Source: a bacterium
GTDB lineage: Bacteria; ARS69
DNA: 5,977 bases
Assembly: GCA_025774865.1 (NCBI GenBank)
Contig: JALGZO010000555.1
Location: 1-5,977, forward strand
Direction of reading: 5' to 3'
The position numbers were made by a program, and so were the translations under genes. Positions within the stretch are counted from its first letter, which is position 1, and each line of letters opens with the position of its first letter. Of the stretch, positions 1-5,573 are shown in pieces. The notes beneath the pieces are model-generated. The model did no database searches and was not told the origin of the DNA. It saw only the letters and a program-made list of their open reading frames with translations.

Positions 1-277
1 CCTCGGCTTGCCGTTTCTTCTCGTCGGCCCCGATCTGGGTCCGTTCGCCCCCCGGAACCGGTCGCTGCTGCTGCGCGCTGGCGTGGCGGCGGAGATCGAG
101 TCCGCGGCGGCCGCCCGGCGACTCGCGGAGATCGTGACCGGGCTTCGGTCATCGGGGCGATTGCTTCGAATGTCGGAGATGGGAGTGGGGCTTCCTTTCC
201 GCGGCTTCGAGCGGGCCGCGGAGCTTCTCATCGAGGAGGCGGATCGCCGCGCCAGGACGGGGGGAGAGACGCCGTGA
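1..277 (+). CDS. Glycosyltransferase, C-terminal fragment (MurG / diacylglycerol glucosyltransferase-like, GT28 type)
   Basis: The reading frame is already open at the left edge (codons from base 2), so the 5' part of the gene lies outside the window; 91 codons remain. The visible piece starts with GLPFLLVGPDLGPFAPRNRS, followed by a LLLRAGVAAEI segment and a helical tail that ends in AAELLIEEADRR. This matches the layout of the donor-binding C-terminal lobe in GT28-type enzymes: a 'G-x-P' strand-loop, an RN pair followed by a Leu-rich helix ending in 'aGvA', then a 'L..M......p.a...a..i' tail. Enzymes of that type move sugars from nucleotide sugars to membrane lipids on the cytoplasmic face. 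The substrate cannot be told from the fragment, and other GT-B families remain possible. The stop codon overlaps the start of the downstream peptidase gene as GTGA, implying one operon. Confidence 0.6.
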   Translation, partial: LGLPFLLVGPDLGPFAPRNRSLLLRAGVAAEIESAAAARRLAEIVTGLRSSGRLLRMSEMGVGLPFRGFERAAELLIEEADRRARTGGETP

Positions 278-1449
278 GCGCACCGGTCGAGAGCGGTCCG
301 CTCCTGGACACGGTTCGCGCGTTCGCGTTTCCGCGCTTTCCGGGGACGGACGGCGAGCGCAGAGCTGCGGACCTCGCAGCGGCGCGACTCGAGGCGGAGG
401 GGCTCTCCGTGACGCGGGAGCCGTTCCGGGCGAGCCTCACGGCACTTTGGCGCCTGCGTTTCCTCATCCACGGGGTGCTCGCGTGCCTCGTATTGACGGT
501 CGGGCTCGTGGCCCCGGCGAGCGCCGAGGTGGGCGCGTTCTTCGGGATCTCGTTCTTGCTGCTGGGCGCCGGAGTGTCGCGGTGGTCCAACGTCGTCGAG
601 AGCGCGTTCGACCGGGGTTCGGCGATCACGAGCGAGAACGTGGTCGGGCGGCGCGCGGGTCGCGGCGAGCATCCGCTCTGCTTCGTATTCCTCGCTCATC
701 TCGACAGCAAGTCCGCGCGCCTCGCCACGTTCTGGCCGTCGCTGATGATTCTCGCCGCGTTCACGATCGCGATCGGTTTGACGCTGGCCGCGGTTCTCTC
801 CGCGGGGCGGGGCTCGGGCGCACTGCCGGCGGCGATGTGTGTTCCGCTCGCGGTCGTGGCGGCCGCCGCCCTCCTCGCTTCGCCGTTCAATCCTTCCGGC
901 AACGAGTCACCGGGGGCGATGGACAACGCGTCGGGACTCGCGGTGTTGCTCGAGGCCGCGCGGACTTTGCCGGCCGACGTGGCCCTCGCCGACGCCGAGC
1001 TCGTCTTCCTTGCGACCGGGGCGGAGGAGATAGGGCTCGCGGGGGCGATGCGCTGGATTCAGGCGCACGAGAAGGAGCTCGATCGGAAGCGGACCGTGTT
1101 CGTGAACGTCGATTCGGTCGGGGTGGGGCGTGGCCTCATTGGGCTGAACGCGAAAGGGCACGTGCCGGGGGGCCGGTCGATGGCGAGCGTGGTGAAGGTG
1201 GCGGCGAGGGCGTCGGGAGTGCGGATGAAGTTCCTCGGAGCGCTTCCCGGGGTGGGCGTGGACACGATCCCGATCGCGAGCCGGGGATTCGCGACCGTGA
1301 CGATCGTGGGTCAAGTACTGGGGTCGGCCTCGAGACGAATACACTCACCGTCGGACACGATCGAGCACCTGAACGAGACGGGACTCGTGGACGCCGCGAC
1401 GGTGGTGGGCGAGATCGCGAGGACGATCGCCCTCTCCGCGCCCCGCTGA
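274..1449 (+). CDS. Membrane-embedded M28-family zinc metallopeptidase
   Basis: The product is 391 residues. The M28 metal-binding pattern is complete: His142 (in AHLDSK), Asp217 (in GAMDNASG), catalytic Glu251 with ligand Glu252 (in GAEEIG), Asp280 (in NVDSVG) and His357 (in RRIHSPSD). Family members are di-zinc aminopeptidases or related amide hydrolases. There is no cleavable signal peptide. Hydrophobic segments lie at about 63-81, 86-101, 154-176 and 184-202. The first pair precedes the catalytic core; the second sits between His142 and Asp217, which in soluble M28 enzymes are only about a dozen residues apart. Arg-rich flanks at 59-62, 103-149 and the very short, nearly uncharged outer loops put both termini and the active site on the cytoplasmic side (inference). 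The start is GTG, preceded by a GGGGGGAG run at 259-266 and overlapping the upstream stop, so it is probably translationally coupled to the glycosyltransferase. The substrate is unknown; family assignment is firm. Confidence 0.9.
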   Translation: MSAPVESGPLLDTVRAFAFPRFPGTDGERRAADLAAARLEAEGLSVTREPFRASLTALWRLRFLIHGVLACLVLTVGLVAPASAEVGAFFGISFLLLGAGVSRWSNVVESAFDRGSAITSENVVGRRAGRGEHPLCFVFLAHLDSKSARLATFWPSLMILAAFTIAIGLTLAAVLSAGRGSGALPAAMCVPLAVVAAAALLASPFNPSGNESPGAMDNASGLAVLLEAARTLPADVALADAELVFLATGAEEIGLAGAMRWIQAHEKELDRKRTVFVNVDSVGVGRGLIGLNAKGHVPGGRSMASVVKVAARASGVRMKFLGALPGVGVDTIPIASRGFATVTIVGQVLGSASRRIHSPSDTIEHLNETGLVDAATVVGEIARTIALSAPR

Positions 1450-1722: not shown

Positions 1723-2097
1723 TCAGAGGAGGCTTCCCGCAATGAACAGACCGGCGACCGCGCTCTTCACGACCGGGCAAAGTCGCATCGGGAGCACCGA
1801 GGTTCTCGCCCCGGTCAGAGTGCTCACGAGCGCCAGGGCGAGGAGCATGCCCGCTGAGAGGCGATAGACGAGGATCGCCGCCGGAGACTCGGCCCCGAGG
1901 GTCGGCGTCACCACGGCGACCAGAAGGCCCACGAAGACCATCGTGAGCCCCTCGTCGGTCCATTCCATGACGAGAATCCGGCGATTGTCCGGGGTGAGAA
2001 CCCCGAATCCGGCCACGACGGGGCGGAGCGCGGCGATGTGCGCGATCCCCCACGCCCCGATCACCACCGCTCCGAGATAGAGCAGCACACTGTTCAT
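1723..2097 (-). CDS. Small four-helix integral membrane protein, unknown function
   Basis: The 124-residue product is mostly hydrophobic, with likely membrane segments at about 4-24, 51-67, 73-95 and 107-123. Between the first two lies a conserved-looking polar stretch, GFGVLTPDNRRILVMEW (30-46), followed by Asp48 and Glu49; the third helix ends in TGART and is followed by a CP-VVK motif (107-111). I recall this arrangement from small uncharacterised membrane proteins of other bacteria, but I cannot name a family or a function. The start ATG follows an AGGGAGGG run (2110-2103 on the - strand) at normal spacing. It is the first gene of a - strand pair, divergent from the kinase gene, and its leader contains an 8-bp GC hairpin. 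The tandem CRP/FNR-type palindromes lie about 80-117 bases upstream of its start, so it is a plausible target of that regulator (inference). Confidence 0.85.
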   Translation of the reverse strand: MNSVLLYLGAVVIGAWGIAHIAALRPVVAGFGVLTPDNRRILVMEWTDEGLTMVFVGLLVAVVTPTLGAESPAAILVYRLSAGMLLALALVSTLTGARTSVLPMRLCPVVKSAVAGLFIAGSLL

Positions 2098-2176: not shown

Positions 2177-2192
2177 GCTGACGAAGATCAGC
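2177..2192. promoter_or_regulatory. CRP/FNR-superfamily-type operator, site 1
   Basis: A 16-bp palindrome with perfect five-base arms, GCTGA-N6-TCAGC. The core TGAC-GAAG-ATCA differs in one base from the FNR/DNR core TGAT-N4-ATCA and also fits the general CRP-type TGA-N6-TCA frame. It lies in the divergent region between the - strand membrane-protein gene and the kinase gene. The second, near-identical site starts 22 bp further on, which makes chance occurrence unlikely. Confidence 0.6.
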
Positions 2193-2198
2193 CCTTGC

Positions 2199-2214
2199 CA
2201 TGACAAAGATCATG
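2199..2214. promoter_or_regulatory. CRP/FNR-superfamily-type operator, site 2
   Basis: A 16-bp palindrome with perfect five-base arms, CATGA-N6-TCATG. The core TGAC-AAAG-ATCA is identical to that of site 1 except for one base. The 22-bp centre-to-centre distance equals about two helical turns, placing both sites on the same DNA face. Its centre is about 105 bases from the kinase start and 109 from the - strand start, so either or both transcripts may be controlled. Confidence 0.6.
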
Positions 2215-2311: not shown

Positions 2312-4120
2312 GTGGAGCCACCGGAAATCGCCGCCGCGGGGAATGGTGGACACCGCATCGCCGCGAAGCTGGAGTCGGGTTCCTCCGAGGTACCCCTGGC
2401 TCCGGACGTCCACCGGAAAGCGTGCCGAAGGCTCGCCTGGGTCGCGCTCTGCTACGCCATCGGCTACGTGGTGGCCTTCGGCTACTACTGGTCGCAGGTC
2501 TTCACGCACCACGCACCGCGGCCGGACCTGTTCAGCAATGTCGTCTCCGCCGCGGCGATCTGTCTCGGTCTGTTCGTACACGTTCGCACCAAGATGTGCG
2601 TTCCCACCCCGGTGCGAACCTGCGATCCCGGGTGTCGCCGCCTCCCCATGCTGCCCTACGCGAAGCTCGCCTTCGTGTTCCAGGTGGTGGCGGCACTCGG
2701 GATCATCGCGGGCTGGGGCTGGGGATGGGAGCAGGATCTGGCCGCCAACGTGCTCGGGGCCGGGACCTCCCTGGGGATCGAGAACGCGAACCTGCAAGCG
2801 GATTTCGTCGAGCGGATCTCTCTCGGGAACGCTCGGCTCTTCCAGTTTCTCGGCGTCACCTGGGTGGGCGTCTGGATCATCTTCTTTCCGCTGCTCGTTC
2901 CGAGCGAGCCACGCGGTTCGGCCTGGGCCTCGCTTCTGGCCGCGACCACGGTGCCCTTCGTCATGTTCGGTTCGCTCCTCGCCCACGGGATTCCCGACGC
3001 GGCCCGTCCGTGGGTCGCCGAGTACCTCGGCAACATGATCGTGCCCACGTACATCTGTGCCGGGTTCGCCATCGTGGCCTCGCGCGTCGTCTACCGGATG
3101 ACTCACGACCTCTCGGTCGCTCGCCGGATGGGCAGCTACCAGCTGGTCGAGAGATTGGGCGCGGGGGGCATGGGAGAAGTGTGGAGAGCGAAGCACCGCA
3201 TGCTCGCGAGGCCGGGCGCGATCAAGATCATCCACCCCGAGACGCTGAGCGCGGGCAACCACGAGGAAGCGACCACGGCACTGAGGCGCTTCGAGCGCGA
3301 AGCACAAGCGACCGCAGCCCTGAGGTCGCCTCACACGGTCGATCTCTACGACTTCGGCATCACCGACGAGGGCAGCTTCTACTACGTGATGGAGCTCTTG
3401 GACGGGGTCGACCTGAGGACGCTCATCGAAAAGCACGGTCCGATGCCGGCGAGCCGGGCCGCATTCGTGCTCCAGCAAGCCTGCGCATCGCTCGCCGAGG
3501 CCCACGCCCGAGGGTTGATTCACCGCGACGTCAAACCGGCCAACATCTTCGTCTGCCGGCACGGTCTCGAGTACGACTTCGTGAAGGTCCTGGACTTCGG
3601 ACTGGTGAAGAGAGCTGATGATCGCGACGAAGCCGGGTCCCAGTTGACCGCCGCCGGGATGGCGCCGGGAACTCCCATGTTCATGTCCCCGGAAATGGCA
3701 CACGGGCGCCGCGTGCTCGACGCGCGCGTGGACATCTACGCCCTCGGATGCGTCGCCTACTGGCTCGTGACTGGACAGTTCGTCTTCGACGGAAACTCTG
3801 CGGTGGACATCATCGTCCGACACGCTCGCGACGTTCCCGTCCCTCCTTCCGTACGCACCGAGATCGATATCCCGAACGACTTCGATCGCATCGTGCTGGA
3901 TTGCCTCGAGAAGGACCCCGCGAAGCGGCCCCAGACCGCCGAGGAGCTCTCGCTCCGCCTCGGCGAGTGCGAGAGGCGAATCGGCCGGTGGACTCTCGAC
4001 TCGGCGGAGCGGTGGTGGAGCTTGCACGTCCCGCTCGCGGGGCCGGATCTCACCGTCGCGCTCGACGAGGCCGCGAGGACGCAGGAGGTTCGCCGCGCGG
4101 AGACGGTCCCACACTCCTGA
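2312..4120 (+). CDS. Hanks-type serine/threonine protein kinase with N-terminal six-helix membrane domain
   Basis: The product is 602 residues. Predicted membrane helices lie at about 41-60, 73-91, 115-135, 178-196, 205-223 and 239-261, followed directly by a kinase domain at about 276-555. The kinase has the glycine loop GAGGMGEV (283-290), Lys305 in AIK, Glu330 in the C-helix, HRDVKPAN (404-411), DFG (428-430), SPE (459-461), Asp474 and Arg539, so it should be active. Possible activation-loop phosphosites include Thr446 and Thr454. The order is the reverse of PknB, which has the kinase first and an outer sensor last. With the kinase inside, the largest outer loop is about 136-177. The inner loop between helices 2 and 3 has three Cys (96, 104, 108). 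The segment with GVTWVGVWIIFFPLLVP (181-197) resembles N-terminal regions I recall from other bacterial membrane kinases. A C-terminal tail (556-602) contains a WW motif. The ligand and phosphorylation targets are not visible. The gene has its own GTG start and Shine-Dalgarno, and its upstream region carries the tandem CRP/FNR-type sites. Confidence 0.93.
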   Translation: MEPPEIAAAGNGGHRIAAKLESGSSEVPLAPDVHRKACRRLAWVALCYAIGYVVAFGYYWSQVFTHHAPRPDLFSNVVSAAAICLGLFVHVRTKMCVPTPVRTCDPGCRRLPMLPYAKLAFVFQVVAALGIIAGWGWGWEQDLAANVLGAGTSLGIENANLQADFVERISLGNARLFQFLGVTWVGVWIIFFPLLVPSEPRGSAWASLLAATTVPFVMFGSLLAHGIPDAARPWVAEYLGNMIVPTYICAGFAIVASRVVYRMTHDLSVARRMGSYQLVERLGAGGMGEVWRAKHRMLARPGAIKIIHPETLSAGNHEEATTALRRFEREAQATAALRSPHTVDLYDFGITDEGSFYYVMELLDGVDLRTLIEKHGPMPASRAAFVLQQACASLAEAHARGLIHRDVKPANIFVCRHGLEYDFVKVLDFGLVKRADDRDEAGSQLTAAGMAPGTPMFMSPEMAHGRRVLDARVDIYALGCVAYWLVTGQFVFDGNSAVDIIVRHARDVPVPPSVRTEIDIPNDFDRIVLDCLEKDPAKRPQTAEELSLRLGECERRIGRWTLDSAERWWSLHVPLAGPDLTVALDEAARTQEVRRAETVPHS

Positions 4121-4201: not shown

Positions 4202-4210
4202 TGCTATAAT
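4202..4210 (+). promoter_or_regulatory. Extended -10 promoter of the lipoprotein gene (TGCTATAAT)
   Basis: A perfect TATAAT hexamer is preceded by TG plus one base, the extended -10 motif recognised by primary sigma factors. No good -35 hexamer is present at 16-18 bases (TCGCTG at 17), as often seen for extended -10 promoters. Transcription should start near 4217, giving a leader of about 28 bases. Such an AT hexamer is striking in this GC-rich surrounding. It also means the in-frame ATG at 4209, which overlaps the hexamer, cannot be the start on this transcript. Confidence 0.75.
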
Positions 4211-4233
4211 GCAAGACTCGCTCCCCAGCACGC

Positions 4234-4239
4234 GGGAGG
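4234..4239 (+). promoter_or_regulatory. Shine-Dalgarno GGGAGG deciding the lipoprotein start
   Basis: GGGAGG lies five bases before the ATG at 4245. Together with the promoter position and the lipoprotein signal peptide that begins directly at this Met, it selects 4245 over the upstream ATG at 4209. Confidence 0.75.
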
Positions 4240-4244
4240 CCGCA

Positions 4245-5573
4245 ATGTTTCGCCGCATCCTCATCCCGGCAGTCATCACCGCGGGGATCGTCAGCCTTGC
4301 CGGCTGCGGAGATTCTTCTCCCGATTCCGTCCTCAGTCTCGCCGGGGCGGACCGTTCGCTCGCCGGTGGATCGTCGGGACCGGTCATCACCCTCCGCTCG
4401 AACCTCCTCCCCACCCAGGTGAGCGGAGAACCGACCGAGCCGTTGGACGTGTTCGCCGGCAACGGCCTGCGGTTCACGTGGAGCGCGAAGCCCGGAGAGT
4501 CGGGCTCTCCCGTGGCCGGCTTCGGCTACGCGGTGGACGATACGTCGGAGTGGGCGCCGTTTTCTCTGGAGAACACGGAATGGCCGCCGAGCATCAAGGG
4601 TGAACCGCAGTTCTGGTTTCCAGACGCGGGCCCGCACAAGTTCTTCGTCCGGGCGATCGACGAAGAGCAGACGATCACCGTTCTCGTCGCCGAGTTCGTC
4701 GTCTTCCTCGGTCCTCAATTCTGCAGCGAGACGGAGCGTTTCATTCTCGTCGTGCTCGACACCGATCCGGTTCCGCTCGTCGCGAACGGGATCTGGCCGG
4801 CCGACTACCCCGACGTGGAGCGCGCGCTGGTCGACAGCTGGTTCGAAGGCTACGACTTCCAGCTCTGGGAGACCGGCGGTACGGCAGCGCCTCCCGTGAG
4901 CCTCATGAACTGCGCCTCCAGCACGTTCTGGATTCATGGCTCCGATGTCGGCGCCGGCGCCGCGTCGGTCCTCGAGTCGTATCACCTGGCGGGCGCGAAC
5001 ACCCTCCAATCGTATTCCGCCGCGGGGGGGAACATCTTCCTGGCCGGCATCCGGCCGTCCGAGGCGCTCCGCTGGTTCGAGTCGGCCGACGACGGGGACC
5101 GGATCCGCCAGGAGTACCCCGTCGCGTTCGACGAGACGCTGGGAGGGGCGTCCTGGGCGAACTGGGTGCCCCACTGGGCGGCGACCCGGCTTCCACTCGC
5201 TGAAGTGGAGAGGTCGGTCGGCGGAGGCCGGAGCGATGCCGATGCGCTGCCACGGATCACGGTGGCGACCTCTGCGGTCACGGGCGGCCCGAACCCGTAT
5301 CCCGAACTGCCTTGGGACCCTGCGCGGTGGACGGGCTTGACGCGGGGCTTCGGATACTTCGACTTCGCGGTGCGCCCCGAGGACGGCGAAGTCATCTACG
5401 AGTTGAACGCCACCGGTACGTCGCTCGGCGTGCGGCGGCTGATCGGTCCGGGCGTGCGGGGCAACGCGGTCTTCGTCGGGTTCCATCCGTACTTCGTGGA
5501 AGACTCCGCGTTCCGCAGCCTGGTACGCGCGGTGCTCATCGACTTCGGGGAGCCGACGGATCCCGAGAGGTAA
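4245..5573 (+). CDS. Secreted lipoprotein with Ig/Fn3-like module and amidotransferase-like C-terminal half
   Basis: The product is 442 residues. It begins with a type II signal peptide: MFRR, a hydrophobic core at 5-17, and the lipobox LAGC with Cys21. Gly follows the Cys, so no Asp+2 inner-membrane retention signal is evident. Residues about 47-154 look like an Ig/Fn3-type beta sandwich, with LRFTWSA (75-81), VAGFGYAVDD (90-99) and HKFFVRAIDE (131-140). This pattern resembles extracellular beta-sandwich modules I recall from Eisenbacteria-like genomes. Residues about 165-434 look like an alpha/beta fold: a FILVVLDTD strand (166-174), AGGNIFLAGIRPSEAL (260-275), and a final VFVGFHPYFVED (409-420) plus helix ending in DFG. 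This resembles class I amidotransferase-like or ThuA-like folds, but no catalytic Cys-His-Glu triad is evident, so a binding role is as likely. Cys160 and Cys223 could form a disulfide. The gene has its own promoter and appears monocistronic. The function is unknown. Confidence 0.85.
   Translation: MFRRILIPAVITAGIVSLAGCGDSSPDSVLSLAGADRSLAGGSSGPVITLRSNLLPTQVSGEPTEPLDVFAGNGLRFTWSAKPGESGSPVAGFGYAVDDTSEWAPFSLENTEWPPSIKGEPQFWFPDAGPHKFFVRAIDEEQTITVLVAEFVVFLGPQFCSETERFILVVLDTDPVPLVANGIWPADYPDVERALVDSWFEGYDFQLWETGGTAAPPVSLMNCASSTFWIHGSDVGAGAASVLESYHLAGANTLQSYSAAGGNIFLAGIRPSEALRWFESADDGDRIRQEYPVAFDETLGGASWANWVPHWAATRLPLAEVERSVGGGRSDADALPRITVATSAVTGGPNPYPELPWDPARWTGLTRGFGYFDFAVRPEDGEVIYELNATGTSLGVRRLIGPGVRGNAVFVGFHPYFVEDSAFRSLVRAVLIDFGEPTDPER

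Follow-up and report, generated by a model that had tools for sequence, protein, structure and literature searches.

A tandem pair of Crp/Fnr-type palindromes with a fixed 22-bp step is a probable composite operator in a little-sampled bacterial lineage

Two near-identical palindromes in a divergent promoter region of a 5,977-nucleotide stretch of bacterial DNA (the window) form a real double site. Throughout the genome from which the window comes, 13 of the 14 strict pairs of the 12-bp core TGAYNNNNRTCA share a spacer of exactly 10 bp and the reversed control pattern yields no pair, which excludes chance as the origin of the two palindromes. Judged from its sequence, the pair is very likely a putative operator of a Crp/Fnr-family regulator. 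The explanation that best accounts for the observations as a whole, and one in which we have good confidence, is a composite operator: two FNR-type dimers would occupy a tandem pair phased at 22 bp and exert a redox-type global control.

The preliminary description of this DNA had reported two near-identical 16-bp palindromes, 22 bp apart, with five-base arms and a one-base difference between the cores, and the sequence bears this out (Table 1). The starts of sites A and B are separated by 22 bp, the five-base arms of both are perfect and the core TGACNAAGATCA is common to both, with one base different. Their placement between divergent membrane-protein and kinase genes is also as described, with 81 bp between the pair and the ATG of the former and 99 bp between the pair and the GTG of the latter. 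Searches of Pfam and NCBIfam with the predicted membrane protein returned no family match. Searched for in the window, the tandem pattern TGAYNNNNRTCA-N10-TGAYNNNNRTCA gives a single match, and 200 dinucleotide shuffles of the window give none. An initial search pattern, TGACNNAAGNATCA, contained the wrong gap, gave no matches and was dropped. No sigma-70-like promoter was seen near the pair in the intergenic region of the window, and no common −10 element was found at a fixed distance when one was sought across the pairs.

Table 1. Features of the window and their positions.
Feature	Position	Strand	Details
Site A	2177-2192	.	GCTGACGAAGATCAGC; core TGACGAAGATCA at 2179-2190
Site B	2199-2214	.	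CATGACAAAGATCATG; core TGACAAAGATCA at 2201-2212
34-bp tandem operator (putative), TGAYNNNNRTCA-N10-TGAYNNNNRTCA	2179-2212	.	unit recurring genome-wide with constant spacing
124-aa hydrophobic protein, predicted membrane, divergent gene	1723-2097	-	G002 ortholog 77% identical
602-aa Ser/Thr protein kinase, N-terminal half hydrophobic	2312-4120	+	Pkinase, E 1.6e-42; possible operator target
M28 peptidase gene	274-1449	+	one of four credible window genes
ORF of 454 aa, lipoprotein-like start, 3′ of the kinase gene	4209-5573	+	no Pfam match

Genomes were searched with degenerate patterns and reversed-pattern controls. The window is contig C559 of a 4.7-Mb genome (G000; 785 contigs, 92.65% complete, 8.3% contaminated), which, together with four relatives (G001 to G004), makes up a phylum sample of five genomes, all from one family. 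In G000, the core TGACNAAGATCA occurs 16 times (reversed control 0), and several of its contexts show a second palindrome 22 bp away. The 14 strict pairs mentioned above were obtained with TGAYNNNNRTCA-N{0,30}-TGAYNNNNRTCA; with the same pattern, all pairs in G002 (3/3) and G001 (2/2) lie at N10, and G003 and G004 contain no pairs (controls 0). When the pattern was loosened to paired TGAN6TCA with spacers of 0-30 bp, 16 of the 25 pairs in G000 fell at N10 and no other spacing was represented more than twice (reversed control 1); the corresponding fractions were 4/13 in G002, 2/3 in G001, 0/1 in G003 and 0/5 in G004. Under uniform spacings, the excess at N10 in G000 has a P of about 1e-18 to 2e-18. 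Allowing one mismatch in addition to the strict pairs gave 19 N10 pairs in G000, 2 in G001, 8 in G002 and 0 in both G003 and G004 (controls 0). Genes in these loci were called with a simple codon-position model and not with a trained gene finder; by these calls the loci are 82% coding, and 17 of the 19 pairs in G000 fall entirely in non-coding DNA. Of the remaining two, one shares 3 bases with a stop codon and the other 13 with a predicted start. The motif is therefore not scattered at random in coding regions, a result that strongly favours an intergenic operator. The functional unit is probably the 34-bp tandem pair and not two independent sites.

Motif composition was examined in 22 pairs (44 sites) from G000, G001 and G002. 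All of these sites carry TGA and TCA, that is, the palindromic core TGA-N6-TCA of Crp/Fnr-family operators. Also kept are C or T and G or A just inside these triplets, and the outer TGA is preceded by A or C (A in 25 sites, C in 18 and T in 1). The inner part, GAY-N4-RTC, is present as well, the inner base of the outer half always being C or T and that of the inner halves being C or T in 40 of 44. The sites do not conform to the outer T (TTGA) and A (TCAA) of the canonical FNR site, the outer contexts in the window being CTGA/TCAG and ATGA/TCAT. Spacer and flank positions are nearly free, most of them carrying about 0.1-0.4 bit. The preliminary description had regarded the flanking bases of the two sites (GC/GC and CA/TG) as compensatory; this does not hold as a rule, since the first flank position is complementary in 25 of the 44 sites against 18.7 expected and the second is at chance.

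A CRP/FNR-family gene, which the preliminary description had proposed to look for in the host genome, is present. Crp-type HTH domains score above the Pfam cut-off in G000 (C331 and C75), G001 (C623 and C556) and G002 (C63); borderline matches just above the cut-off, both weak, were obtained for C150 in G000 and C77 in G002, and a third Crp/Fnr gene of G000, C655, is truncated at a contig end. N10 pairs and clear Crp/Fnr-type HTH proteins thus occur in the same three of the five genomes; in G003 (100% complete) and G004 (82%), Crp-type HTH matches are sub-threshold only and N10 pairs are absent. This co-occurrence is drawn from five genomes, with the contamination of the G000 assembly to be borne in mind. 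Within the family, pairs also adjoin regulator genes: one lies 11 bp upstream of the C623 gene, one lies over the stop codon of the C75 gene, and imperfect tandem pairs lie on either side of the C331 gene (L078 700-733 and about 1584-1617), one of them 11 bp after the gene and the further imperfect one about 104 bp upstream. The sites are accordingly genome-wide, mostly intergenic and accompanied by a candidate cognate regulator, as befits Crp/Fnr operators. They are likely to be bound by C331, a Crp/Fnr protein with four cysteines, by its cysteine-poor paralogue C75 or by both.

C331 combines a cNMP-type sensor domain (PF00027, 56.4 bits) with a Crp-type HTH (PF13545, 66.9 bits). Its cysteines C13, C16, C62 and C115 are near-invariant in 23 aligned proteins. 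The cysteines of Escherichia coli FNR are C20, C23, C29 and C122, and the protein binds TTGAT-N4-ATCAA (PMC5398030). FnrN and FixK both recognise TTGANCNNGATCAANG, and of the two only FnrN has the cluster cysteines (PMC4999443). In an alignment of a Bacteroidota homologue with a structurally characterised FNR, FNR cysteines coincided with the CxxC and with the position of C115 (FNR C122); the homologue has no counterpart of FNR C29, and C62 is extra, so that the set differs from the four cysteines of FNR. Curated NCBIfam Fnr/FnrL models are the nearest to the Bacteroidota homologues, and these homologues, C75 and C63 of G002 all match such models far below the cut-off. We therefore refer to the regulator as FNR-like and do not call it FNR, because C29 is lacking and its relatives fall below the NCBIfam cut-off. 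Of the E-x-x-S-R motif in the FNR recognition helix, E202 and R206 are invariant, and where FNR has S212 the aligned proteins carry I, V, M or T. In FNR, S212 helps to read the outer T of the site, and its replacement would fit the absence of T outside TGA here. The C75 paralogue (L001 1384-2115) has lost most of the cysteines of its relatives and so resembles a partner that lacks cysteines and accompanies an FNR-type sensor.

A scan with four regulators retrieved 80 loci, chiefly from Bacteroidota, which were picked by protein similarity and not by motif. TGAYN4RTCA occurs 50 times in the 21.7 kb made up of the 350 bp before each regulator gene and 89 times in 516 kb elsewhere, an enrichment of about 13-fold, and in 47 loci a single site lies within 100 bp before the start of the regulator match. 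A site within 200 bp of the regulator gene was present in 12 of 22 genus-level groups, so that redundancy alone does not explain the enrichment. The regulator gene is followed by an exact N10 pair in L105 (a Cyclobacteriaceae MAG), L122 (Roseivirga) and L162 (an Ignavibacteria MAG), and by a pair with one mismatch in L128 (Shiella) and L095 (a Deltaproteobacteria MAG). A heavy-metal P-type ATPase gene (ccoI-like) is among the genes that come next, as is ccoN (cbb3 oxidase) in L162. When partner sites with at least 5/6 matches were counted in the regulator loci, 22 bp was the commonest distance (16, next 9), a modest signal. Because the loci were picked by protein similarity, these observations are independent evidence that this branch of regulators uses the core and, in part, the pairing.

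The strict N10 pattern was found in 18 of 386 genomes, a set spread over the domain and drawn almost wholly from other families, with at most two pairs per genome outside the family and none for the reversed control in any genome. The placement of these few outside pairs does not seem random. Two N10 pairs are conserved between two congeneric species (L088 2120-2153 and 11942-11975; L089 2172-2205 and 11994-12027): they lie upstream of cytochrome cd1/radical SAM genes and, separately, of a cytochrome c/COX1-type gene couple, which we take to be norC/norB. In two species of another genus, the pair lies between cytochrome c7-type and Rieske/cytochrome b genes (L090 3174-3207; L091 3340-3373), and a further outside pair adjoins a pyruvate:ferredoxin oxidoreductase (POR) gene. 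Three TGAYN4RTCA sites at 22-bp steps overlap the predicted start of a YceI-domain gene in G207 (L087 3585-3640). The expectation that the motif would mark respiratory genes, raised in the preliminary description, thus holds outside the family (cd1, Rieske/cytochrome b and others) but not in the own genome, where the targets are mixed and not mainly respiratory: peptidases, LVIVD, hydantoinase, RtcB/archease, FlgD-Ig and many secreted proteins. Redox-type genes linked to pairs within the family are POR with DHOD, decaheme and c7 cytochromes, and methionine sulfoxide reductase. The preliminary reading of the sites as belonging to the CRP/FNR superfamily is upheld by the shape of the motif, its co-occurrence with Crp/Fnr genes, the sites beside regulator genes and the respiratory targets elsewhere.

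The signal is rather more probably oxygen, redox state or NO than a cyclic nucleotide, because of the cysteines and the linked cbb3, cd1, nor-like, Rieske/cytochrome b, POR/DHOD, cytochrome and methionine sulfoxide reductase genes. A CRP-like binder that responds to a cyclic nucleotide, with the operator reporting carbon or second-messenger state, is unlikely. TGA-N6-TCA is common to CRP and FNR sites, the targets in G000 are metabolically mixed, the top-scoring model for the G002 regulator is a CRP model and the top PDB sequence matches of C331 are actinobacterial Crp/Fnr-family regulators, all of which would suit such a binder. Nevertheless, GTGA is absent and A or C precedes TGA, three of the four near-invariant cysteines occupy FNR positions, NCBIfam places the Bacteroidota homologues nearest Fnr/FnrL, and the linkage to cbb3 oxidase, cd1, Rieske/cytochrome b and POR genes also argues for an FNR-like protein.

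That another family of dimeric regulators reads TGA-N6-TCA, the link to Crp/Fnr being a coincidence, is improbable: the co-occurrence comes from only five genomes and the binder is predicted from sequence, but the core recurs before and after Crp/Fnr genes of several phyla in loci chosen only by protein similarity, and pairs adjoin three regulator genes inside the family. Dispersed palindromic repeats (REP- or MITE-like) or chance are barely credible as the source of the pairs, even though there are many intergenic copies of fixed internal geometry in one genome and the one orthologous promoter compared has no intact copy, since little sequence is common outside TGA/TCA, the geometry recurs in unrelated phyla beside regulator and respiratory genes, and the reversed pattern is missing from all 386 genomes; copies of a repeat element were rejected on the ground that the pairs do not have spacers and flanks in common.

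In the FNR-like mechanism that we favour, each 12-bp TGAYNNNNRTCA would be bound by one dimer of an FNR-type Crp/Fnr protein. The 22-bp step corresponds to about two helical turns and would place both dimers side by side on one face of the DNA, where, as the strict spacing suggests, they most likely touch or bind cooperatively. The two dimers quite probably act jointly as the functional unit. Oxygen, redox state or NO would be sensed through a presumed Fe–S cluster, and the regulator may then adjust electron-transfer, fermentation-type, envelope or secreted functions. Because the targets in G000 are mixed, a global role beyond respiration is possible. In the window, the predicted operator could act on either of the divergent genes, that for the membrane protein or that for the kinase, or on both.

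The proposal in the preliminary description that a CRP/FNR regulator controls a kinase module is compatible with the position of the pair, but the operator has decayed in G002, the sole relative that keeps the divergent gene order. Its promoter region aligns well with that of the window, and TGATCTTTGTCA is replaced by TAGTCTTTCTCA and TGATCTTCGTCA by TTGACTTCGTCA; in both 12-mers the TGA half is gone and TCA is kept. Conservation of the palindromes at the orthologous promoter, on which the earlier reading had depended, is therefore not seen. Relatives of the DHOD gene were also searched, and none has a pair. Targets thus seem fast to turn over, given the decayed kinase promoter of G002 and the DHOD relatives that have no pair. 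If the kinase is controlled at all, this would be lineage-specific, and we think such control somewhat less probable than its absence. Two DHOD-like proteins of G000 (C635 186-1181 and C744 691-1683) are 73% identical, and only one has an upstream operator; they are either paralogues or a product of the 8.3% contamination.

What emerges is a predicted DNA code, with a list of candidate targets, for a global regulator of a sparsely sampled, uncultured lineage that is represented here only by fragmented assemblies. The results also suggest a phase-locked double operator for an FNR-like branch that is widespread and, in Bacteroidota, common next to cbb3 oxidase genes. Oxygen or redox state would be tied to protein phosphorylation if the kinase proved to be a true target. 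A bolder and more doubtful proposal is that a widespread, little-described FNR-like branch (CxxC, beta-roll Cys, C122-position Cys, no C29) uses a new set of cluster ligands and acts as dimer pairs on 22-bp-phased operators, serving in this lineage as a global regulator whose targets would include a Ser/Thr kinase.

The operators of FNR, ANR, DNR and FnrN-FixK have the form TTGAT-N4-ATCAA (PMC5398030, PMC4999443). The sites described here resemble them in the 12-bp core TGAY-N4-RTCA, with an equal distance between half-sites, and the systems are alike in their respiratory targets (in other phyla) and in the E and R kept in the recognition helix. They differ in that the outer T is replaced by A or C, the sites are found chiefly in pairs with a step of exactly 22 bp, and the candidate regulator has no C29 and an extra conserved C62. 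The CRP operator, TGTGA-N6-TCACA, has the same TGA-N6-TCA geometry and is read by a protein of the same superfamily; by contrast, GTGA is absent here and the likely regulator has conserved cysteines. In E. coli, the distances between tandem CRP or FNR sites vary from promoter to promoter. Those promoters likewise carry more than one site of the superfamily, whereas a single distance, 22 bp, holds throughout this genome. Nothing specific on a fixed 22-bp tandem FNR/CRP pair was found in the literature covered, which included few subscription journals, so that its absence is weak evidence. The operator type is known; what is new is its phase-locked 22-bp tandem form.
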